Below, piece after piece: positions 6,843-24,466 of a stretch of 26,050 nucleotides of DNA; the stretch's first letter is position 1; each line of letters begins with the position of its first letter. The notes beneath the pieces are model-generated. The model was not told where the DNA came from. It did no database searches and saw only the letters and a list, made by a program, of their open reading frames with translations. The stretch comes from a virus: positions 1 through 26,050 of IMG/VR virus record IMGVR_UViG_3300032214_001786. One strand, given 5' to 3'. Position numbers and translations under genes: made by a program.

Positions 6843-7472
6843 TTATTTTTTAGTTAAGATAGGACAATAATAAGTTTTCCATTCAGGATGCCAATAGTAT
6901 CTACCATCAGCAGTTTGCATTTCTGGTCCATCGATATCTTCGAGTTGTATTGTTTCAAACTCAATATTGAAAATTGGGTTTAAAATATCATAGTGCTCCT
7001 GGGTCATGTGCAGACCTTTCTCATCAGCTCTTGGATTGTTGAAGAACGACAGAATACCATCTTTTTTCAAAAATGCTGGTGAGTTGCGAAGGAAATCATA
7101 AATCTCTTCGTTCCAGGTATCAATATAAACTCCATCAAACTCTGGAAGGTATTTCATAAACCACTGCCAGTCACCATGAAGGATTCTCACGTGGGGTTTC
7201 AAATGCCAACCATCATTCATCATCTTGGTAAAGACATCCAAGTGAGGTTCAATAATCCAGTGCTCCTGGATTTCATGGTTTTCAATTGCGGTATCAATGA
7301 TACCCATACCGAAACCTACGTTCAATACTCTACCACCTTTTCTACAGATTACCTCGGCTGCTTGCTCCATAATGGGACGTTCCCATTCCATCATTACCGC
7401 TTGTCCGGTCTCATCCATAAGCCTACCATCTTCCGTGTAGGTCAAATGTTGTTGAATATAAGGTTTACCCAT
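6843..7472 (-). CDS. SAM-dependent methyltransferase, guanidinoacetate N-methyltransferase-like
   Basis: A 209-residue class I methyltransferase. VMMEWERPIM (26-35) matches the substrate-side helix of guanidinoacetate/arginine N-methyltransferases; VGFGMG (52-57) is the SAM-binding glycine motif; EHWIIEPH (70-77) follows it as in GAMT; and DGVYIDTW (113-120) carries Asp118 at the position of the guanidino-binding aspartate of GAMT. From this the substrate may carry a guanidino group (guanidinoacetate, arginine or a base derivative). It follows glutamine synthetase with a one-base overlap (TAATG), so the two are probably translated together. GAMT-like enzymes are unexpected in a phage. Fold certain, substrate unproven. 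Confidence 0.85.
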   Translation of the reverse strand: MGKPYIQQHLTYTEDGRLMDETGQAVMMEWERPIMEQAAEVICRKGGRVLNVGFGMGIIDTAIENHEIQEHWIIEPHLDVFTKMMNDGWHLKPHVRILHGDWQWFMKYLPEFDGVYIDTWNEEIYDFLRNSPAFLKKDGILSFFNNPRADEKGLHMTQEHYDILNPIFNIEFETIQLEDIDGPEMQTADGRYYWHPEWKTYYCPILTKK

Positions 7473-8638
7473 TATTCCTTTCCGATATTATCAATCGTTC
7501 GTTCCTCTTCCTCGTAATCGTGATGATTATTTGCGTTGAAGTCAACACCAAGATAAGCAAGCATTTCCTTAGCTTTTTCAACATCAATCTTGGTGTTCAT
7601 AGTGTGATTGATTTTATCCAACTGCAAAGCAAAGTCCAAAGCCTCAGCAATCACACGAACAATCTTATAAGGGTCACCATTCGATGCTGGACGACGGTCT
7701 TCAACATATCCTTTCCATTCCTTAGAAGTAGCTAGTGGAACACGGATTGAAGCACCACGGTCCGAAACACCCCAACTGAACTTGTCAATTGATTGGGTCT
7801 CGTGCTTACCAGTTAAACGAAGGTTGTTTTCCGAACCATAGTTTTGGATGTGTTCTTGGTGACGCACATCAAAAGAACGGAAGATGTTATTGAAGTATTC
7901 TTCACCCCCCTCTTCACGCATTTTATCATTAGAGAAGTTGCAGTGAAGTCCAGAACCATTCCAATCACCTTGTACTGGTTTGGGGTGGAATTCGATTTTG
8001 AATCCGTACTCTTCGCTCATCTGCAGGAGAATATAACGAGCCATCCAAAGGTCATCACCAGCTTTGAGTTTTCCTTTGCTGAAAACCTGGAACTCCCACT
8101 GACCGAGCAACACCTCCGCGTTGGTACCCGTGATGTCAATTCCTGCTTTAATACACATCTCCATGTGATTGTCAACAAACTCACGTCCGTGAACTTGTCC
8201 GTTACCGACACCACAATAGTATTTGCCCTGGGGTTCTGGGTAACCATTCTTTGGAAATCCAAGAGGTCTGCCGTTTTGATAAATGGTGTACTCTTGCTCA
8301 AAACCAAACCAAAGGTCTTCTTCTTCAAATCCGACATCAGCACGGGTGTTAGTGATGTGGGGAGTTCCATCAGGATACATAACCTCACACAAAACAAAAA
8401 AGGATTTCAGATAACCTTTGTTGAGGATGTTTTCATAAACTCTTACAGGTTTGAGAATGCAATCTGAGAATTTACCCTCCGCTTGACGAGTTGAGGAACC
8501 ATCAAAGCTCCACTCAGGGCAATCATCAAGGGTAACTCTACCTTCCTGGTGAGGTGTGTTTATTACTTTAACCTTACTTCTAAGGTTTGGCTCAGGAGCG
8601 TATCCATCAAGCCATACATATTCTAATTTAACTTTCAT
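7472..8638 (-). CDS. glnA: Glutamine synthetase, type II (eukaryote-like)
   Basis: A 388-residue enzyme of the GSII class, which makes glutamine from glutamate, ammonia and ATP in the cytoplasm. The beta-grasp start LEYVWLDGYAPEPNLRSK is typical. Active-site motifs are all present: FEQEYT (113-118), EVLLGQWEFQ (175-184), GDWNGSGLH (224-232), RLTGKHET (274-281), WGVSDRGASIR (289-299) and EDRRPASN (313-320). The length is near the usual 340-370 plus a short acidic tail. It overlaps the upstream small gene by four bases and the methyltransferase by one. GSII genes occur, from memory, in flavobacteria, so capture from a host is likely. It may feed glutamine to nucleotide synthesis or make a gamma-glutamyl product. 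Confidence 0.93.
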   Translation of the reverse strand: MKVKLEYVWLDGYAPEPNLRSKVKVINTPHQEGRVTLDDCPEWSFDGSSTRQAEGKFSDCILKPVRVYENILNKGYLKSFFVLCEVMYPDGTPHITNTRADVGFEEEDLWFGFEQEYTIYQNGRPLGFPKNGYPEPQGKYYCGVGNGQVHGREFVDNHMEMCIKAGIDITGTNAEVLLGQWEFQVFSKGKLKAGDDLWMARYILLQMSEEYGFKIEFHPKPVQGDWNGSGLHCNFSNDKMREEGGEEYFNNIFRSFDVRHQEHIQNYGSENNLRLTGKHETQSIDKFSWGVSDRGASIRVPLATSKEWKGYVEDRRPASNGDPYKIVRVIAEALDFALQLDKINHTMNTKIDVEKAKEMLAYLGVDFNANNHHDYEEEERTIDNIGKE

Positions 8639-11550: not shown

Positions 11551-12525
11551 ATGGACAAGTACGATAGAATAGTTCAAGATTATAATAATGATGATGTTGA
11601 CGACATCCTTGAAGTATTAGGTGGTAATACCCAAGCATTATTTAAAATGCTAGATAAAAAAGGTAAACTCGATGATTTGTATTATGAAACACCACTTCAA
11701 AACGAGTTGTTTTTATACATAGCTAGAAATTATCCGGATAGATTCAAAAATATAGCAACCAGCACTTTAGCGGATGTTGAAATTAATTCGGATGGAGAAC
11801 TTGTTTATATTGGTTCAGATTTCGGAGATTTAGCAAGTTTTTTTTGCGAGGGTAGATATTCTTTATCTCAGGATTCTATTGAACGTATTTTAGATGATGA
11901 AGGTGATTACTTTGAATTTTTTGATGATACTACTGACGACTTATATCGAGATGTGATTGAGGATTTGACTGAAGAAAACTTACAACTTTTAATTAAAAGA
12001 CTCACCAATGAAAGTCCTTTGATTGAGCCAACAACAGAACTATTGACTATATTAGCTTCCGAACAAAACAATGAAGGTTTAGTTAGAATTAACGAAGAAA
12101 ATTTGGATGAAATCTTAGAGGATGAGAAAAGTACCCTAAGTATTCTTAACCAAAACTTAGACGTTAAATCTGATTTGTACAATGTTCATAACAGTGCGTA
12201 TAACGATGCATATCTTTCACAAGTTAAAAAAAATGTTCTATCGGGACTTGAAGAACTTTTCGATGGTTTGCCCAAAACAAAACCTGGAATGGGAAACAAA
12301 AAGTTCTATGTGGAAATAAAACTCAAAGAGAACATATTTCTTGAAACTTTAAAAAACTTTTTGGAAGAAAACCGCCAATGGTCAGAAGAAACCCTTGATA
12401 GGTACGGTTATTTTAACAGCATCTTCGGTGAAGTTTCTGATTGTTTAAGCACTTTTGCTCCGGACTATGCAGACTGGACGAAAACAAAAGAAAATATTAA
12501 TTTAATTTTTCCTGATTATTTTTAG
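11551..12525 (+). CDS. Acidic hypothetical protein on the plus strand
   Basis: A 324-residue acidic protein, mostly helical, with many Asp/Glu-rich turns ([29 protein letters not shown]). Leucine-rich helices repeat at roughly 30-40 residue spacing in the first two thirds, but I see no regular repeat family such as ankyrin. No signal or catalytic motif. It is one of only two plus-strand genes and converges on the fibre operon: its TAG and the TAA of the opposite gene share three bases (12522-12525), with no terminator between. The high acid content and solitary position resemble phage-encoded inhibitors or DNA mimics, but this is speculation. Confidence 0.78.
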
Positions 12526-15500
12526 ATAACCAAGCCAGATTGTTGTGCTTTGTCCAATATTCTCTGAGTTCTGATTTCAAGTTCAGTAATTTTCTTTTCC
12601 TGCTCTTTGATAGCTTCGATTGTTACAGTAACAACGTCTTTGTAACGGACACCATAAGCAGTATCTTCATTTCCAACTAAAACTTCTGGGATATATTCCC
12701 CAATCTCTTGCGCAATAAATCCTATTTGTACAGTAGTCGTATCCCTACCTAAACCTTCAGTCCAGTTATATCGAACACCTCTTAGTTTTTTTACTAGGTC
12801 AATAGCAGAAGTTATATCCACAATATTCTTCTTCAGCCTTATATCCGATGGACCTGCTGGTCCAGGGGCACCTTGAGCTCCCGTTGGCCCTTTTGCCCCT
12901 TGAGCACCGGTAGGACCTGGATTATTTGCTCCTTGTGCTCCAGTTGTGGCTGACGCAGGGCCTGGGGCTCCCTGAGGTCCCCTTGGTCCCGTAATACCCA
13001 AATCCCCTGGTCCACCCTGAAATCCTTGACCACCTTGTGCACCTTGGAATCCTTGTCCTCCAGCCGCCCCCTGAGCCCCTTGGAAACCCTGCGGCCCTTG
13101 TGCTCCTTGCGGTCCGGTTACACCAGGTAATCCTTGGCTACCTTGAGGGCCTTGAACTCCAACAGGTCCTTGAGAACCCTGTGCTCCGCCAGGACCTTGG
13201 GCACCTTGGAAACCTTGAGGACCTTGAGCTCCTTGAGGTCCACCACCCCCGGTAGCTCCCTGAGCACCCTGGAATCCTTGACCCCCTTGGTCACCTTGTG
13301 CTCCTTGAGGACCTTGAGCGCCGTTAGCCCCTTGGAATCCTTGAGCACCAGTTGCTCCTCCGGGACCAGTAGCGCCAGTAGCACCCTGTGCTCCCTGAAA
13401 GCCATTAGAGCCAGTTGCTCCTTGAGACCCTTGAGGGCCAGTGGCTCCTGCAATACCTTGGAACCCTTGACCACCTTGAGCACCTTGTGCTCCCTGTGGA
13501 CCACCGACTCCCTGCGCACCCTGAAAACCCTGAGCACCAGCACTACCCTGAGAACCTGTTGCCCCAGTAGCACCCTGAGCACCTTGGAATCCTTGTCCTC
13601 CTTGAGCACCTTGTGCTCCTTGTGGTCCTGTACCTCCACCAGCACCTTGGAATCCTTGACCACCTTGGGCTCCTTGAGAACCTTGTGGACCACCAACTCC
13701 TTGTGCGCCCTGAAAGCCCTGAGCACCAGCAGCTCCTGTTGGTCCTCCAGCTCCTGTGGCACCCTGAGCACCTTGGAATCCTTGTCCTCCTTGAGCACCT
13801 TGTGCACCCTGTGGTCCTGTTCCTCCTGGTGCTCCTTGAAACCCTTGTCCCCCTTGAGCTCCTTGTGCTCCTTGTGGACCTAAAACTCCCTGAGCACCTT
13901 GGAAACCCTGACCGCCTTGGGCTCCTTGCGCCCCTTGTGGTCCGGTTACACCAGGTAATCCTTGGCTACCTTGTCCCCCTTGTGCTCCTTGTGCTCCTTG
14001 GGGGCCTTGAGCGCCTTGTATACCTTGAAATCCTTGACCACCTTGGGCTCCTTGAGCACCAACAGCTCCTTGAGAACCTTGTGGACCCTGAAAACCCTGT
14101 CCTCCTTGAGCTCCTTGAGCTCCCGTTGCCCCTTGAGCACCTTGGGCTCCTTGAAATCCTTGTCCCCCTTGAGCTCCCTGAGCACCTTGGGCTCCCGTTG
14201 CCCCTTGAGCACCTTGAAAACCTTGTCCTCCTTGGGCTCCTTGAGCTCCTTGTGGTCCGAAATTGGCGCCACCTTCACCACCACCATTGATACCTTGAAA
14301 ACCTTGACCTCCCTGCGCTCCCTGAGCACCCTGTGCACCTTGGACACCAGGTATACCTTGAGCACCCTGACCGCCTTGAGCTCCTTGTGCCCCTAAAATA
14401 CTTGAACCACCTTGTGCACCTTGGAAACCTTGCCCTCCTTGAGCTCCCTGAACACCAGTAGCTCCTTGAGCCCCCTGTGCTCCCTGGAAACCTTGCCCTC
14501 CTTGAGCTCCTTGTGAGCCAGTTGCTCCCAATGCACCTTGAGCCCCTTGGAATCCTTGTCCACCTTGTGCTCCTTGTGCCCCTTGTGCTCCCTGAGCACC
14601 TGTTGCACCTTGGAAACCTCTAGCACCGACAGGTCCTTGAGCTCCTTGTGCACCCTCCAAAACACCTTCCGCGCCACCACTTATACCTTGAAATCCTTGA
14701 CCTCCTTGGGCACCTTGTGCACCGATGGCACCTTGAACTCCAGGTATACCCTGAGCTCCTTGACCACCTTGAGCTCCTGTTGTACCATTCGCTCCTTGGG
14801 CACCCTGTGCACCTTGAAATCCTTGTCCACCTTGTGCCCCTTGAGCACCTTTGGCACCTTGTGCACCTTGCGCACCTTGAAATCCTTGACCACCCTGAGC
14901 CCCTTGAGCGCCAACGGCACCTTGTGCACCTTCTGGTCCTTGAGCACCTTGCGCACCTTGTGCCCCTTGAGCACCTTGAAACCCTTGACCTCCTTGCGCA
15001 CCTTGGAATCCTTGCCCTCCTTGAGCTCCTTGAGCACCTTGTGCCCCTTCTAATACCCCTTCAGCACCACCATTAATTCCTTGAAATCCTTGACCACCCT
15101 GAGCTCCAGTAGCTCCTTGAGCACCGACAGCTCCCTGAGCTCCTTGAAAACCTTGACCGCCTTGAGCTCCTTGTGCTCCAACATGACCCTGCGGACCTTG
15201 AGCACCTTGTGCGCCTTGAGCCCCTTGAGAACCTTGCCCACCAATACCTCCCTGGGCACCTTGAGCACCTTGTGCTCCTTGTGCTCCTTGCGCTCCAATA
15301 GCTCCTTGTGCACCTTGTGAACCCTGAACCCCCTGGAAACCTTGTCCACCTTGAGCGCCCTGAGCACCTTGTGCCCCAATTTCCCCAGGAATTCCTTGTG
15401 CTCCTTGACCTCCAGTAGCTCCCTGAGCACCCTGAAACCCTTGACCTCCTTGTGCTCCTTGAACCCCTTGAGCCCCTTGAGCTCCAGCAGAGCCTACGCG

Positions 15501-15992
15501 ACCCTCAGCACCCTGGGCACCTTGAACTCCTTGAACACCAGTAGCCCCCTGTGCCCCAACAGCGCCTTGAAAACCTTCAACACCTTGAGCACCTTGACCG
15601 CCTTGTGCTCCCTGAGGGCCTATATCTCCAGTGGGACCCTTAGCTCCTTGTGCTCCTTGTGCTCCTTGTGCTCCTATTGGGCCTGATGGTCCAGGAAATC
15701 CAGTAAAACCTTTTGCTCCTTGAGCTCCCTGGGGTCCTGTATTTTGATTACCTAACCAACCAGTCCCATCTATAATTTTACCCCATTGGTTTGTAATTGA
15801 GTCAACGTACAAATCAGCGTCAGTGACTTTGAAACTTACTGCACTATCAACAATGTCTAATATATTGTAACTACTATTTGAAAATCTCAAACCAGTGCCT
15901 GTGCTCACAAATACCCAATCGGAAAATGTTGAACCTGAATCAACAAATTCGAATTTAGATTGTCCTGGGAATATAATAATATTTTCAGCCAC
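12522..15992 (-). CDS. Collagen-like tail fibre with S74 chaperone (third of three)
   Basis: A 1156-residue fibre. Residues 1-85 form an N-terminal attachment domain starting [10 protein letters not shown] and ending in the hinge GTGWLGN. About 960 residues (86-1047) are nearly perfect Gly-X-Y triplets, mostly GAQ, GGQ and GFQ, predicted to form a long trimeric triple helix. There are a few breaks, such as [10 protein letters not shown] and GGEGGANFG. Residues 1049-1156 are the intramolecular chaperone (peptidase S74): SDIRLK with the Ser1049/Lys1054 dyad for self-cleavage, the conserved GFIAQEI, and a terminal helix. After trimer folding the chaperone is expected to be released. It overlaps the preceding fibre gene by eight bases. 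Likely a receptor-binding or side fibre; some Pro triplets (GPA, GPT) lie near the end. Confidence 0.92.
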
Positions 15993-18900
15993 TTATCAAT
16001 GATTTTAAGGGTTTGATTTTATTTCTCAATAGATTAATTCTTTCTTGGTTTTCTTTGATTGCTGCAACACCAACGGAGACTAAAATATCATATTGTATAT
16101 TTTTGTATCCATATCTATCTTCCAATATTAACTCGGGAAACAATTTCTCAATTTCTTGAGCTATAAATCCAATACTTTTCCCTTTAATGTAGAAATGTTC
16201 ATTTTTCGGGTAGCTTTCAAGTTGTGGGATATCTTCCAACCACTCAAAATGAACTCCGCGCATATCAATAATTTTGCTCGAGACATTTGATAAAGGAAAA
16301 ACATTCGTTTTTAATCTGGCATCTGAAGGGGGCCCTTGAGGTCCTTGAGCACCCTGTGAACCTACGGCACCTTGAGAACCTTGAGCTCCTTGAAGTTTTG
16401 CCCCTTGTGCCCCCTGAGGTCCTCTTGGTCCAACGACACCTTGAAAACCTTGGGGACCTTGAAAACCCTGAGCACCCGTTGGTCCTTGAGCACCTGTTGG
16501 TCCTCCAGGGTTTCCAGTAGCTCCTTGAGTCACACCAGCAGCTCCAGTAGCTCCTGTGGCTCCTTGTGTTGTCGAAGCAGCACCCCCAGCACCCTGTGGT
16601 CCTTGAGAACCTTGAGCTCCAGTAAAACCTTGGACACCACTTTGACTACCTTGAGCACCGGTAGGACCTTGAGCCCCTTGATTACCAGTAGCTCCTCCTG
16701 TTGTGCTTGGAGCTCCTTGTGCTCCCTGGGGACCCTGTGCTCCAGTGGCTCCAGTGGCTCCTTGTGTAGCATTTCCAGCTCCTGGTGCTCCTTGAAAACC
16801 CTGAGCACCTTGAGCACCTTGAGCACCAGTAACCACACTTGCCGGACCTTGTGCCCCTTGCGGTCCTTGTGCACCTTGTCCACCAGTTGCTCCTTGAGAA
16901 ACATTATTCGCTCCTGTGGCTCCTTGTGAACCCTGTGGCCCTTGGGAACCTTGTGCGCCTGTTGGTCCACCAGTAGCACCAGTTGCTCCCTGGAATCCTT
17001 GAGCTCCTTGAGCACCTTGAGCTCCAACTGTTGCAGTTGCTGGCCCTTGCGCCCCTTGTGGGCCTTGAGCTCCTGTTGCTCCAGTAGCTCCTTGAACTGC
17101 ACTACCCGCGCCAGTGGCCCCTTGAGAACCCTGTGGTCCTTGAGGACCCTGTGCTCCAGTAACTCCACCCGTGGCTCCAGTTGCACCCTGAAATCCTTGA
17201 GCACCTTGGGCTCCTTGAGCTCCTACGGTTGCAGTTGCAGGACCTTGTGCACCCTGTGGCCCCTGGGCTCCTTGACCTCCAGTGGCTCCTTGGACCGCAC
17301 TACTAGCTCCAGTTGCTCCCTGAGAACCCTGTGGTCCTTGAGCTCCCTGCGCTCCTGTTGGACCACCTGTTGCTCCTGTAGCACCCTGAGCACCTTGTGC
17401 ACCCTGGGCACCTTGTGCACCAGTAGTGCCTCCTTGAGCACCTTGAGCTCCTTGTGAACCTTGTGGACCTTGGGAACCTTGTGCTCCTTGAATAGTGCTG
17501 TTCAAACCTTGAGCTCCTTGTGGTCCTTGAGCACCCTGAGCTCCCTGAGCTCCAGTTACACCACCAGTTGCACCTATTGAACCACCTGGTCCTTGTGCAC
17601 CTTGAGGACCTAACGCTCCCTGAGGCAAACCTGGAGCTCCAACACTACCTTGCGCTCCTTGTACTCCCTGACCACCGGTTGCTCCTTGCGTTGCACCTGC
17701 TGCGCCCTGAGCTCCACTTTCACCTTCAAGTCCTTGTGCTCCTTGACCTCCTTGTACACCTCCAGATGTGCCTGGAGCTCCTTGAAATCCTTGTGCACCT
17801 TGCGAACCTTGAGCTCCTGTTGGACCTCCAGTTGCACCGATTGCACCTTGAGCTCCTTGTGCACCTTGAGCTCCTTGTGCACCTTGTATACCACCCTGAG
17901 CACCTTGAGCCCCCTGAGCACCCTGTGCTCCTTGAGCCCCTGTGGCTCCTTGTGGTAATCCTGTTGCACCTATTGCCCCTTGGGCACCCTGAGCACCAGT
18001 AGCCCCTAATGCTCCTTGAACGGCACCTTGTGCACCTTGAGCACCCTGTGCTCCTTGGGCTCCTTGACCACCAGTAGCTCCTTGAGGCAGACCAGTTGCA
18101 CCAGTCGCTCCCTGGGCTCCTTGAGCTCCGGTAGCACCCTGAGCACCGATTAAATCAGATTGGGGTCCCTGAGCACCTTGTGCACCTTGAGCACCCTGTG
18201 CTCCTTGCGCACCTTGGGTTGCTCCTTGCGCTCCTTGAGCACCTTGCGCTCCTTGAGCACCTTGCGCTCCCTGAGCTCCTTGAACTCCACCTTGCGCACC
18301 TTGGGCTCCTTGAGCACCTTGACCGCCAGTAGCCCCTTGTGCTCCCTGTGTGGCTCCTTGAGCACCTTGGGCTCCTTGAGCACCTTGGGCTCCTGTTGCC
18401 CCAGCAGCACCTTGTATTCCTCCTTGTGCACCCTGAGCACCTTGTGCACCTTCAGCGCCTTGAGCACCTTGAGCACCCGTTACACCACCTTGAGCACCCT
18501 GTGCTCCTTGGGCTCCTGTAAAACCCGTTGCCCCCTGAACCCCTTGTACACCACCTTGAGCACCTTGGGCACCTTGAGCACCTTGAGCACCTTGTGCTCC
18601 CTGAGCACCTTGAACCCCTCCTTGGGCTCCCTGAGCACCTTGGGCTCCCTGAGCTCCTTGGCCACCTTGTGCGCCTTGAACCCCACCTTGTGCACCTTGA
18701 GCTCCTTGCGCTCCAGTGAATCCGGTCGCGCCTTGAATACCCTGGACACCACCTTGAGCACCTTGTGCTCCTTGAGCACCTTGAATTCCTACAGCACCTT
18801 GGATTCCTTGCACACCACCTTGTGCTCCTTGGGCTCCCTGGGCACCCTGCGCTCCTTGCGGACCTATTGCACCTTGAACAGCTCCTTGCGCTCCCTGAGC

Positions 18901-21900
18901 TCCTTGGGCTCCCTGAGCTCCTTGGGCACCTTGAGCACCTTGAACCGCTCCTTGTGAACCTTGTGCTCCAGTTGCTCCAATAAAACCAGTAGCACCCTGA
19001 GCTCCGAGTACGCCTCCTTGTGCACCTTGCGCACCTTGAGCCCCTTGAGCTCCTTGTGCACCTAAGGCACCTTGAACAGCACTTTGTGCTCCTACAGCTC
19101 CTTGAGCACCTTGAGCTCCTTGAGCACCTTGGGCTCCTTGAACACCACCTTGAGCTCCTTGAGAACCTTGGACTCCTTGAGCTCCTTGAGGTCCTATTGC
19201 TCCTTGAGCACCTTGTGCTCCTTGTGCTCCTTGTGCACCCTGAGCTCCTTGAGAACCAATAGCTCCTTGAGCTCCTTGGAACCCTTGAATATTGAAAGGG
19301 GGTCCCACCCATTCTCCGATGGTGTTAATCATTCTGGTTTCACCAGCCCAAACACCAGTTGATGGATTGCTTACGCTGGTTCCCGAAGTTGTCACACCCG
19401 AAGAACTTATTACAACTAAACGAGGAGAAGTCCCGGCAGAAAATCTTAACTCATTACCAAAATATTTTAATTTAAATTGGTCGCCAACAGCATCCTCAAA
19501 TAAAATTTGTGGAATTTCATCACCAGTTACTCCTGAAGGGAATATAGTTATATTATTGGCCATTAGAGATTAAAATATTTTTCAAGTTCAATTATATCTT
19601 TTTCTACTTCTTCAATAAATACTTGTTGTTCTTTAATACCCTCCACTAAAACAGCATTTATACGTGGATAATCAATAGTATAATAACCATCACTTCTCAA
19701 GTGTACTAGTTGCGGAATAACAGCTTTTACTTGTTGAGCTATAAATCCTATTGAATGAGTAATTCCTTTTTCTACAAAGAATTGATATTCTGGTGTTATT
19801 TCTTTCCAATCAAATTCAACTGGTTCTAATTTTAAAAGAGAATCAAGAGAATCAGATAAAGTTTCAACATTTGTTTTTAGTCTTGAATCAGAACAATCGA
19901 ATGCTTCACCTATGACACAATCTGAAACCGTGTAACCCTCTGTACCACTGCATAACAACATACCCGCATCACCTCGACAAATACAAGCGTCCGTACAATT
20001 AGACAGATTATAAATTGGACAACCTCCCCCTAGTCCTGAACATGTCGAGTATTGGTCTATACAACCACTTTGACAACCTGTTGCACAAGCATCACCACCA
20101 TCAGCATAACACTGGTCACAGAATGAAAATGCAAAACATGTTGCAGTAGGTCCTGTTGGGCCTTGTGCACCTTGTGCCCCAGTAGCACCAGTAGCACCTT
20201 GTGCACCCTGTGGACCTGCTAAGCCTTGTGCACCCTGGAATCCCTGTGGTCCTGTTGTACCCTGAGCACCAGTAGGTCCTGGGAAACCATTTGGTCCTAA
20301 TGGTCCTGTTGCACCCTGAGGTCCTCTTGGTCCTTGAGCTCCTTGCGGACCACGTGGACCTTGGGTTCCTTGTGCACCCTGAGGTCCTCTTGGTCCTTGA
20401 GCACCTGAAAAACCAGTAGCTCCCCCGGCTCCTTTTGCCCCCAACGGTCCTGGGGCACCTTGTAAACCACCGTTTCCTTGTGCTCCTGTTGGTCCTTGTG
20501 CTCCTTGAGGTCCTCTTACTCCTTGAGCACCCGTAAAACCAGTAGCACCCTGGCTACCTTGTACTCCTTGTGGACCACGAGGTCCTTGAACACCGGTAAA
20601 TCCTCCAGCTCCGGGTAAACTTGCCGCACCTTGTGGACCCCTTGACCCCTGTGCACCAGTAACTCCTTGAGCACCTTGCGGTCCTTGTGCTCCTTGTGGT
20701 CCTGTGCTACCCTGAGAGCCTTGGGCTCCTGTAAAACCTGTTGCGCCCTGTGCTCCCTGAGGACCTCTTGGTCCCTGAGCACCGGTAGCACCACCAGCAC
20801 CTGGAACGCCTTGAGCACCTTGTGGACCTATTGTTCCTTGGGCTCCAGTAAATCCAGTCGCGCCTTGAGAACCTTGTGCTCCTTGTGGACCTCTTGGTCC
20901 CTGTGCTCCTGTACCTCCAGTAAATCCTGTAGGACCTTGAGCACCTTGGGGTCCAATAGGGCCTTGAGCTCCGGTTGCACCTCCAGCACCTGGCACCCCT
21001 TGGGCACCTTGTGGACCTCTTGTTCCTTGAGCACCAGTAAATCCAGTGGCACCTTGAGAACCTTGTGCCCCTTGTGGACCTCTTGGTCCTTGTGCTCCCT
21101 GACCTCCAGTCAATCCAGCAGCACCTTGAGAACCCTGAGGACCTCTAGGTCCCTGAGCGCCCGTGGCACCGCCAGCAGCTGGTACTCCTTGAGCCCCTTG
21201 AGGACCTATGGCTCCAGAAATTCCTTGGGCACCAGTGAAACCAGTTGCGCCACCATCTCCTTTTGGACCAAATGGTCCTTGAGCACCAGTAAACCCAGTA
21301 GCACCTGTGGCTCCTTGAGCTCCTTGCGGACCTCTTGGCCCTTGACCTCCCTGGGCTCCTTGTGCTCCAGTAAAGCCTACATCACCCTGAGGGCCTCTGG
21401 GTCCTTGACCTCCCTGAGCACCAGTGGCTCCTTGAGCCCCTTGAGCCCCTTGAGGTCCTCTTTGTCCTTGAGCACCTTGACCTCCTTCAGCCCCCTGAGC
21501 TCCTTGCGCACCTTGAGGTCCTCTTGGTCCTTGTGCTCCCTGAGCTCCAGTAGCTCCCAAAGCTCCTTGTGCCCCTTGAGGACCTCTTGGACCTTGAACA
21601 CCCGTTGCTCCTTGCGCTCCGGTTGCACCACCATCACCTTTTGCTCCAGCAGCACCCTGGGCACCTGTTCCACCCTGAGCTCCTTGAGCACCTTGAGCTC
21701 CTTGAGGTCCTCGTGGTCCCTGTGCTCCTTGCCCTCCTTGTGCTCCTTGCGCTCCAATATCTCCTTGTGGGCCGCGTGCACCTTGAATTCCTTGTCCGCC
21801 TGTGGCTCCTTGAGCACCCTGAGCTCCTTGAGGACCTCTTGGTCCTTGCGCCCCCTCAAAACCATTTTCCCCCTGAGCACCTTGTACTCCTTGAGGTCCT

Positions 21901-22900
21901 AATGGTCCTTGTGCACCCGTGGCTCCTTGAGCACCCAATGCACCCTGTGCTCCTTGTGGTCCTCTTGAACCTTGTACTCCAATAGCACCTTGAGCTCCTT
22001 GAGCTCCACCATCACCCTTTGCTCCGGCAGCTCCTTGAGCACCTTGTGCCCCCTGTGCTCCTTGGGCTCCCTGAGCTCCTTGTGGACCCCTTGAACCCTG
22101 CACACCTTGACCTCCTTGAGCTCCTTGAGCCCCGATATCACCTTGTGGACCAACGTCTCCTTGAGCACCTCTTTCTCCTTGACCTCCTTGCGCTCCTCTT
22201 TCTCCTGTTGGGCCTACTTGTCCTTGAGCGCCTTTAGCACCCTGTGCCCCTTGCGCTCCTTGAGCACCCTGCGGACCTACTTGTCCTTGAGCGCCAGTAG
22301 CACCCTGGGCACCAATAGCTCCTTGAGCACCCTGAGGTCCTCTTGGTCCTTGTGCTCCTTGAACTCCAATAGCCCCTTGAGCTCCCTGAGCTCCTTGAGG
22401 ACCAACAACTCCCTGAGCACCAATAGCACCCTGTGAACCTTGTGCCCCTTGCGCTCCTTGAGGCCCTACCTCTCCTTGTGCACCTCTTGCTCCTCCCGCA
22501 CCTTGTGCGCCTTGTGCTCCCTGAGGCCCAACAGTTCCCTGTGCACCTTGACCCCCTTGTGCTCCTTGAAGTCCATTATCTCCTTGGGGACCTCTCGCCC
22601 CCTGAACACCTTCAGCTCCTTGCGCACCTTGTGCTCCAGAGTTACCTTTGGCTCCAGCAGCTCCTTGCGCACCCTGTGCTCCTTGAGCTCCTTGTGCACC
22701 CTGCGCTCCTTGGGGTCCAACCGTTCCTTGTGCACCTTGACCTCCTTGTGCTCCTTGAGCTCCTTGGTCCCCTTTAGGACCAAGTGTTCCTTTAGCACCC
22801 TGGGCACCTTGAGCACCTCTACCACCAACATTTCCAGTAGGACCAACAGCACCTTGAACACCTTGTGGTCCTGGAGCACCCTGTGCGCCCTGAGCTCCTT
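12940..22900 (-). repeat. 9-kb minisatellite-like Gly-Ala-Gln coding DNA
   Basis: Across the three fibre genes the DNA is a degenerate 9-base repeat on the minus strand, GGN-GCN-CAR and variants, interrupted only by the unique N- and C-terminal domains. Synonymous codons vary constantly (GGT/GGA/GGC, GCT/GCA/GCC, CAA/CAG), which keeps exact repeats short although the protein is monotonous. It also opens long meaningless frames on the plus strand rich in Ser, Thr and Leu. Confidence 0.85.
15985..19563 (-). CDS. Collagen-like tail fibre with regularly kinked repeat (second of three)
   Basis: A 1192-residue paralogue. The N-terminal domain (1-93) starts [10 protein letters not shown] and ends in GEWVGPPFN. 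The collagen part (94-1079) differs from its neighbours: runs of six to eight triplets, mostly GAQ, are broken again and again by a four-residue unit (GGVQ, GAVQ, GATQ, GLPQ, GGPT), which shifts the glycine register by one and should kink or loosen the triple helix at short intervals. Residues 1080-1192 are the S74 chaperone with SDARLK (Ser1080/Lys1085) and GFIAQEI. It overlaps the first fibre gene by one base and the third by eight. A fibre with many bends is predicted. Confidence 0.92.
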
Positions 22901-23798
22901 GAGCACCCACGGCAGCATTTGTTGGTGCGGTAAAGTCGTATAAAGTAATGTATGTTGGCAATGCGTCATTAGGCACTTCGTTTGCACTACCGGAAATGAA
23001 AGTTACACCAAAGGTATGGTAGCTCCCGTTGTCAGTTACTGAAGTAATGCCAAAAATGTAACTATTACCAGTTTCAGTAGTTACTCCTAATCTCCATTTT
23101 CCAGCGACAACCGAATCATATAATGCATCACGGTCAACCGCATCATCATCAGTATCATTAATCAAATACTGGGTCACACCAGTTCTCGTGCTTCCATTGT
23201 TAGTGGTAACATCACCACTTGCTGGTGGAGTTAAAGTTGTCCATTTATAATCAAATGGACCATAAATAGTTGGTTGACCACCACCTTGAGTTCCTTGAGC
23301 ACCCTGCGCTCCTTGAGGACCTTGCGCTCCTTGTGCTCCGGTGATATTTGTTCCTGGCCCAATCCAATCTCCAGTTCCGTTCAATACTTGGACACCACCA
23401 ACACTTAAGAAGTTATTAACGGTCAGTCCACTATAGATTTGAACCTTTGGGTAACACGCACCCAAACTTTGGGTAATTGAAACACCTGAAATATCCGATA
23501 TACTTCCACTTCTGGCACATCTATATCTGTATTCTCCAAATGGAACCACAAGTTGAGTAACAACTCCGGTATTACAATCTGTATATTGAACTGTACAGCT
23601 TGGGTTAGTAGCCCCGAAAATTTCGTAATTGATACATCCGGTTTGAGGAGCAACTAATAACTGATTAAAAATTTGAATGGCTCCAGCAAAAAGAACCTCA
23701 AGCTTCATGTTGAAGGTGGTATACTCAAATACAATATTTGGCCTCCTTAACGGCTGAGGAACTAAGTTACTTGGAAATATAATTATGTTGCTAGGCAT
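19563..23798 (-). CDS. Collagen-like tail fibre with cysteine-rich tip (first of three)
   Basis: The longest of the three (1411 residues). N-terminal part 1-153 starts [10 protein letters not shown], contains a five-cysteine domain ([20 protein letters not shown]) and ends in [12 protein letters not shown] short collagen piece (154-172) is followed by a non-collagen insert (173-297, beta-rich, starting YGPFDYKW). The main Gly-X-Y region runs from 298 to about 1217, with many GPR/GPQ and GFT triplets. Residues 1221-1302 are a module with 14 cysteines, then the S74 chaperone (1303-1411) with SDSRLK (Ser1303/Lys1308) and GFIAQQV. Self-cleavage would leave the cysteine module as the exposed fibre tip. 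It is the first gene of the operon, preceded by a TATTTATA box and an 8-bp direct repeat. Confidence 0.93.
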
Positions 23799-23875: not shown

Positions 23876-24154
23876 TTAGAGGTGCTTTTTGATAATTTCC
23901 AAAGCTTCGGTCAACTCGTTGTAGTCCCGCTCTGGAGCATATAAAAAAGATTTATAACTTTCACCCCCCTCTTCAATAATCAAAAGCGCAGGGACATAAT
24001 CGTTCTTGGTCACCTCAACAAAGACCTGGTATTCCTCGTCGTTCTCTTCGATGTCTCTGTCGACAAAGTCAATACCTTCTTTTTGTAGCATCTCTTTAAA
24101 GTCCACGCAATGAGGGCAACCCTGCATTGTATAGACCACAACGTGAGTTGCCAT
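23876..24154 (-). CDS. Glutaredoxin-like protein
   Basis: A 92-residue thioredoxin-fold protein. VVVYTMQGCPHC places the CPHC redox pair at residues 13-16, preceded by the typical beta strand, and VPALLIIEEGG has the cis-proline after valine. CPHC is a less common variant of the CPYC glutaredoxin site, and glutathione-binding residues are not obvious, so it may be reduced by the thioredoxin encoded just upstream (genes abut with no gap). Likely role: electron donor to phage ribonucleotide reductase (not in this window) or reduction of thiols in infected cells. It ends 77 bases before the cysteine-rich fibre gene begins. Confidence 0.88.
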   Translation of the reverse strand: MATHVVVYTMQGCPHCVDFKEMLQKEGIDFVDRDIEENDEEYQVFVEVTKNDYVPALLIIEEGGESYKSFLYAPERDYNELTEALEIIKKHL

Positions 24155-24466
24155 TTAGTATTTACCCATCACCTCCAAGAGCTGAGACTGACTCATAACG
24201 CCAACGTTAGAGAAGACCTCTTCACCCCCTTTATACACCTTAAGTGTGGGAACGGAACGAATACCCAGTTCCATAACAAAATCTCTATCAGAATCAATAT
24301 CCAAAGTATAGATATTCATGGGCAATGCCTCACCGGATTTTTCCAAAGCACCGAGGTTTCCCATTAAAACTCTGCAGGGTCCGCACCATGTGGCGAACAA
24401 ATCCAACATAAAATTTTCTTTGTTGTTAATTTTTTCTTTAAGCTCTTGGGACGTTAGTTGTGTCAT
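24155..24466 (-). CDS. Thioredoxin
   Basis: A 103-residue thioredoxin of normal length. LFATWCGPCRVL contains the catalytic WCGPC (27-31), RSVPTLKVYKGGEE supplies the cis-proline segment, and the Asp-rich strand YTLDIDSD fits the fold. There is no signal peptide, so it is cytoplasmic. The gene abuts the glutaredoxin gene, and its start overlaps the upstream gene by 29 bases. Phage thioredoxins usually serve ribonucleotide reductase; T7 recruits the host protein for its DNA polymerase. Either use is possible. Confidence 0.94.
   Translation of the reverse strand: MTQLTSQELKEKINNKENFMLDLFATWCGPCRVLMGNLGALEKSGEALPMNIYTLDIDSDRDFVMELGIRSVPTLKVYKGGEEVFSNVGVMSQSQLLEVMGKY

Follow-up and report, generated by a model that had tools for sequence, protein, structure and literature searches.

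What does a module packed with cysteines do at the very point where a phage fibre is expected to cut itself? We met this question in a viral DNA stretch of 26,050 nucleotides (IMG/VR record IMGVR_UViG_3300032214_001786, positions 1 to 26,050; hereafter the window). According to the translation and its Pfam matches, fibre 1 of the window consists of an N-terminal part, a collagen stalk with a long Gly-X-Y repeat of about 300 triplets, the cysteine module and an S74 chaperone, in this order (Table 1). The 14 cysteines in 82 residues reported by the initial annotation are all present in the translation, at residues 1221, 1227, 1230, 1238, 1242, 1246, 1253, 1260, 1268, 1272, 1274, 1283, 1294 and 1302 (spacing C5C2C7C3C3C6C6C7C3C1C8C10C7C). 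With the cysteine frequency of 14 other proteins of the window, at least 14 cysteines in 82 residues would arise by chance with a probability of 3e-13. The residue range of the module given there (1221-1302) was correct, but its nucleotide positions, 19888-20136, were off by a few bases and are replaced in Table 1. Its placement of the last cysteine directly before the S74 serine also holds for the window, where C1302 is followed by S1303, the first residue of the Peptidase_S74 match (PF13884, E 2e-14, 54 bits against a cut-off of 22). A minority of the other module versions described below share this contact, and in the rest the last cysteine lies about 1-7 residues earlier. S1303 and K1308 form the expected catalytic arrangement of a serine with a lysine five residues on.

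Table 1. Positions in the window of the three collagen-S74 fibres, the parts of fibre 1 and the two genes upstream of it.
Feature	Position	Strand	Evidence
Fibre 3, collagen + S74, no cysteine	12522..15992	-	translation + Pfam
Fibre 2, collagen + S74, no cysteine	15985..19563	-	translation + Pfam
Fibre 1 gene, 1411 aa	19563..23798	-	ORF + Pfam PF01391 + PF13884
S74 intramolecular chaperone of fibre 1, residues 1303-1411; expected cut C1302/S1303	19566..19892	-	PF13884; Ser + Lys(+5) spacing as in T5 pb1
K1308 codon, predicted catalytic lysine (S1303 + 5)	19875..19877	-	Ser + Lys invariant in alignment A4
14-cysteine module of fibre 1, residues 1221-1302	19893..20138	-	translation; 22 other versions in related phages
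RGD triplet of fibre 1, residues 1275-1277, not conserved	19968..19976	-	translation + comparison of versions
Collagen Gly-X-Y stalk of fibre 1, residues 298-1218, small breaks	20145..22907	-	PF01391 E 7e-117
Glutaredoxin gene (CPHC), directly upstream of fibre 1, not fibre-specific	23876..24154	-	PF00462 E 1e-11
Thioredoxin gene (WCGPC)	24155..24466	-	PF00085 E 6e-18

We searched IMG/VR for relatives and, after removal of duplicates, obtained 23 different module versions including that of the window. All 23 are found on contigs of uncultured phages, each preceded by a collagen stalk and followed by an S74 domain. Two of the contigs measure 317 and 321 kb, indicating that the module-bearing phages are probably large. 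Exactly three tandem S74 fibre genes exist in each of the 14 records examined first and in G029, and every complete cassette examined carries the module on one of its three collagen-S74 fibres, usually the first (the second in G009 and G016). In G016 (L230), the first fibre is cysteine-free, the second is the cysteine fibre, and two other ORFs separate it from the third. In the window, the collagen stalks of fibres 2 and 3 lead directly into the S74 serine, with zero cysteines. The three-gene cassette (12522-23798) is optional, and related phages (L253, L255, L241, L259, L280 and L293) keep the flanking genes without it. For cultured phages, tblastn with two modules as queries found no match of weight among 50,697 phage records. 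A scan for S74 proteins in bacterial genomes revealed none with collagen and a cysteine module, and two cyanophage/pelagiphage matches that we examined both lack the module. The known cysteine-rich families (EGF, TNFR, knottins and others in Pfam) are absent from the Pfam matches of the 11 members of A2, the module alone matched nothing in PHROG, and a search of PDB profiles gave no match. The RGD triplet, which the initial annotation mentioned, is present in the window but occurs in only two of the 23 versions, at different positions, and was rejected as an integrin-type motif. The nearest bacterial S74 matches belong mostly to Bacteroidota, a weak hint at a host in this phylum.

We then investigated the number and pairing of the cysteines. 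Counts over the 23 modules are 14, 12, 10 and 10, followed by 8 in fourteen versions and 6 in five, and are thus even in all 23. Four cysteines (alignment columns 3, 27, 63 and 113) are invariant among these versions, and the S74 domains of the module-bearing fibres contain none. On the S74 tree, about 55 single-site gains or losses, summed over sites, are required. In simulations of independent single events, all tips shared the same parity in none of 20,000 runs with 55 or 30 events and in 2 of 20,000 with 20 events. The optional cysteines tend to come in pairs: c23 and c92 are found together in 10 of the 12 sequences with either, c46 and c84/89 in 6 of 8, c13 and c29 in 3 of 4, and c42 and c55 likewise in 3 of 4, while c98 is nearly always accompanied by c67/69. 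Exceptions are few, for sites that were grouped visually from a loose alignment; site-by-site tests on well-supported branches comprise too few events for significance. Because the cysteine number is always even and the optional cysteines co-occur in pairs, the comparison points to disulfides within each chain.

Both properties bear on the reading of the module as a structural clamp, in which disulfides between chains would lock the collagen triple helix at its end after the chaperone has left, like the cysteine-rich ends of animal collagens and minicollagens. The position at the C-terminal end of the stalk suits such a clamp, as does the invariant last cysteine adjoining the cut, but even parity and co-occurring pairs suit intra-chain pairing better. 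Nor is a clamp required, since fibres 2 and 3 of this phage end at the cut without cysteine, and a clamp would not be expected to vary more than the rest of the fibre. Cysteine-rich domains of minicollagens have the spacing C-x3-C-x3-C-x3-C-x3-C-C, and this pattern is absent from the window module. We therefore regard a clamp as unlikely.

Structure prediction differed between module versions. A relative with six cysteines (G003) was modelled as a confident compact α/β mini-domain over residues ~1-84, with pLDDT ~85-90 over most of it and block means of 76-91 up to residue 80. The 14-cysteine version of the window, modelled from an 11-row alignment, reached a pLDDT of only ~30 and no confident structure. 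Fold searches of the PDB with the six-cysteine model, using a query not confined to the module, returned only weak matches (lowest Foldseek E 0.2; highest VIA Z 4.3 over 53 residues). Its matches in a viral structure library are mostly S74 proteins, and one of them, A0A6J7WJA7 (84 columns, rmsd 2.9), might fall on the module.

Comparison among related phages, which the initial annotation had suggested as a way to detect receptor-linked change, revealed strong variation confined to the module. The median identity of all pairs is 52% for the S74 domain, 19% for the module and 15% for the module without its cysteines. The proteins of L232 and L237 are 95% identical in S74 and 39% in the module. 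At the DNA level, identity is mostly 81-99% over their fibres 1 and 2 but 52% in the module, a drop that starts where the collagen ends and stops at the S74 serine. Similarly, L272 shares 83-87% of S74 and 31-33% of the module with L279 and L286, and these two share 76% of the module; judged from these identities, the set looks like a case of module exchange. A diversity-generating retroelement was rejected as the cause, because no RVT_1 is found in 12 records (three of them of 317-321 kb) and the module differences are not limited to adenines. A template-like repeat for such an element is likewise absent from the window.

Divergence of this kind could alternatively reflect relaxed constraint, if S74 did not cut and the module were a mere linker to a retained S74 tip. 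The low median identity outside the cysteines would fit a linker, and so would the lack of an upstream fold-sensor region like that of T5 and K1F. However, the active-site serine, the aspartate after it and the lysine are invariant in the 14-member alignment A4, four invariant cysteines and a confident fold speak against relaxed constraint, and a sharp variable block between conserved flanks favours selection or exchange. We consider such a linker very improbable.

Our preferred reading, which we hold to be probable, is that the module is a disulfide-braced receptor-binding tip of one of three collagen-stalked fibres, exposed on removal of the S74 domain. Receptor binding is suggested by the combination of a location at the fibre end, presence on one of three fibres, a stable frame and a fast-changing surface. 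The C-terminal S74 domain would help to register the three chains and would then remove itself by cutting in front of Ser1303, so that the collagen stalk would end in three cysteine modules and each chain in Cys1302. Intra-chain disulfides would brace the fold of each module, and its surface residues could therefore change quickly. The initial annotation had proposed a disulfide-rich tip that is exposed when the chaperone is released. The part concerning a folded, disulfide-type domain on the fibre side of the cut is supported by the even cysteine number in 23 of 23 versions, the paired gain and loss, the six-cysteine model and the confined hypervariability. For the remainder, we infer self-cleavage, cysteine oxidation, trimeric assembly and receptor binding.

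A mature fibre ending at Cys1302 with an exposed module would be expected by analogy, because S1303 and K1308 match the arrangement of the T5 L-shaped tail fibre pb1. This protein and the K1F endosialidase also have a C-terminal S74 domain with a serine and a lysine at +5 (Ser1264/Lys1269 is the T5 reference spacing; PMC4690869). In T5 pb1, S74 cuts before the serine, which stays on the departing chaperone, and the release unmasks the receptor-binding end; the domain directly before the cut is this end, in the position that the module occupies in fibre 1 (PMC4690869). Unlike T5 pb1 and K1F, fibre 1 has a stalk of collagen rather than β-structure, a small cysteine-rich tip and no triple β-helix as fold sensor. 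The cleavage is uncertain because the fold-sensor arginine and aspartate of T5 and K1F lie in a triple β-helix just before the cut (PMC4690869), which these fibres lack. The corresponding segment of fibre 1 consists of collagen and the cysteine module, with one arginine.

How can a protein that folds in the reducing cytoplasm acquire disulfides? Cytoplasmic folding, together with the CxxC and CxC spacings of the window version, would suit cysteines that bind zinc or iron or remain free in a domain folded without disulfides, but this reading appears very improbable, with CxxC missing in 14 of the 19 versions with six or eight cysteines, only 0-2 histidines per module, and single cysteines standing about 15 residues apart, a spacing of the disulfide type. 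If the module is instead a disulfide-braced tip, its cysteines must be oxidised at a later stage than folding, because the cytoplasm in which this takes place is reducing. Disulfide formation would be difficult before lysis, and the cysteines would be oxidised probably after leaving the cytoplasm. A search for Evr1_Alr (PF04777), as used in poxvirus-like cytosolic oxidation, gave no match, and the control likewise gave none.

In each of the 13 records with a contig that extends far enough, the thioredoxin and glutaredoxin genes adjoin the cassette on its upstream side, and they are the sole PF00085 and PF00462 matches in the records of 317-321 kb. The same pair occurs without a downstream collagen fibre, and with the other neighbours unchanged, at 24 of 43 non-redundant glutaredoxin loci from this clade of phages. 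As the pair is kept at these loci without the fibre, its adjacency is no evidence for disulfides, and we rejected dedicated redox helpers of the fibre as specific evidence. The linkage is one of inherited gene order, in which an optional fibre cassette lies beside a more widely conserved pair. The pair may still play a role. Weak matches to ribonucleotide reductase (PF02867, E ~1e-5), found in the large relatives G004, G015, G017, G018 and G019 at a distance from the pair, offer another use for it.

On a wider scale, we lean slightly towards the view that the modules form an undescribed family of receptor-binding domains, hypervariable and scaffolded by disulfides, in a clade of large uncultured phages. 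Each domain would have a constant frame of three to seven cystines and loops free to vary, and would sit at the end of a collagen stalk, capped by S74 until release. The initial annotation knew of no description of collagen stalk, cystine knob and S74 in one fibre, and in the open-access literature we also found none of a cysteine-rich domain that terminates a collagen stalk before S74, with subscription papers mostly outside this scope. Fibres with S74, phage fibres with collagen and tips capped by a chaperone are familiar one by one; what appears to be undescribed is the tip-domain family.

The prophage fibres EPclA and EPclB of E. coli O157:H7 have a trimeric collagen stalk with a C-terminal globular end, but they use a PfC trimerisation domain, and S74, a chaperone and disulfides are unmentioned in their description (PMC3368898). 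The eBAP3 fibres of eCIS carry a terminal binding domain, TNFR-like in this case, on a collagen shaft; unlike fibre 1, they belong to an injection system, S74 is reported there in other architectures, and any kinship between the TNFR-like end and the module would be hypothetical (PMC12923769). In the Alteromonas phages A5 and V22, the receptor-binding tip is transiently covered by a chaperone and modules are exchanged between phages, although this chaperone is a separate protein and neither collagen nor cysteine is mentioned (PMC10579305). Cnidarian minicollagens also have a cysteine-rich domain flanking a collagen helix (PMC4863159), but they are animal proteins that cross-link into polymers and their cysteine spacing is different.

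If the proposed reading holds, a cystine frame serves phages as a mutable binding surface, which is more familiar from toxins and knottins, and they join it to collagen, whose simple fold can be lengthened by repeats. The disulfide pairings would also be readable from sequence through the paired gain and loss of cysteines. The sharp modular border delimits about 80 residues as relevant to the search for a receptor.

Fibre 1 shows further features near its N-terminus. Five additional cysteines, an odd number, are located in the N-terminal part (residues 55-115; 23454-23636), and a non-collagen stretch (residues ~175-297; 22908-23276) breaks the stalk. Among the relatives, that in G001 has four cysteines outside its own module, and L007 has four in an N-terminus-proximal insert. 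Elsewhere in the window, the ORF at 210-605 has a signal peptide that looks Bacteroidota-like by eye, a weak host hint. An adenylosuccinate synthetase-like gene (1731-2738; PF00709 E 4e-81), which at 335 aa is short for its family, could bear on base modification of the phage DNA. A glutamine synthetase-like gene, recognised by eye, is located at 7472-8638 and has a homologue near the cassette in G016.
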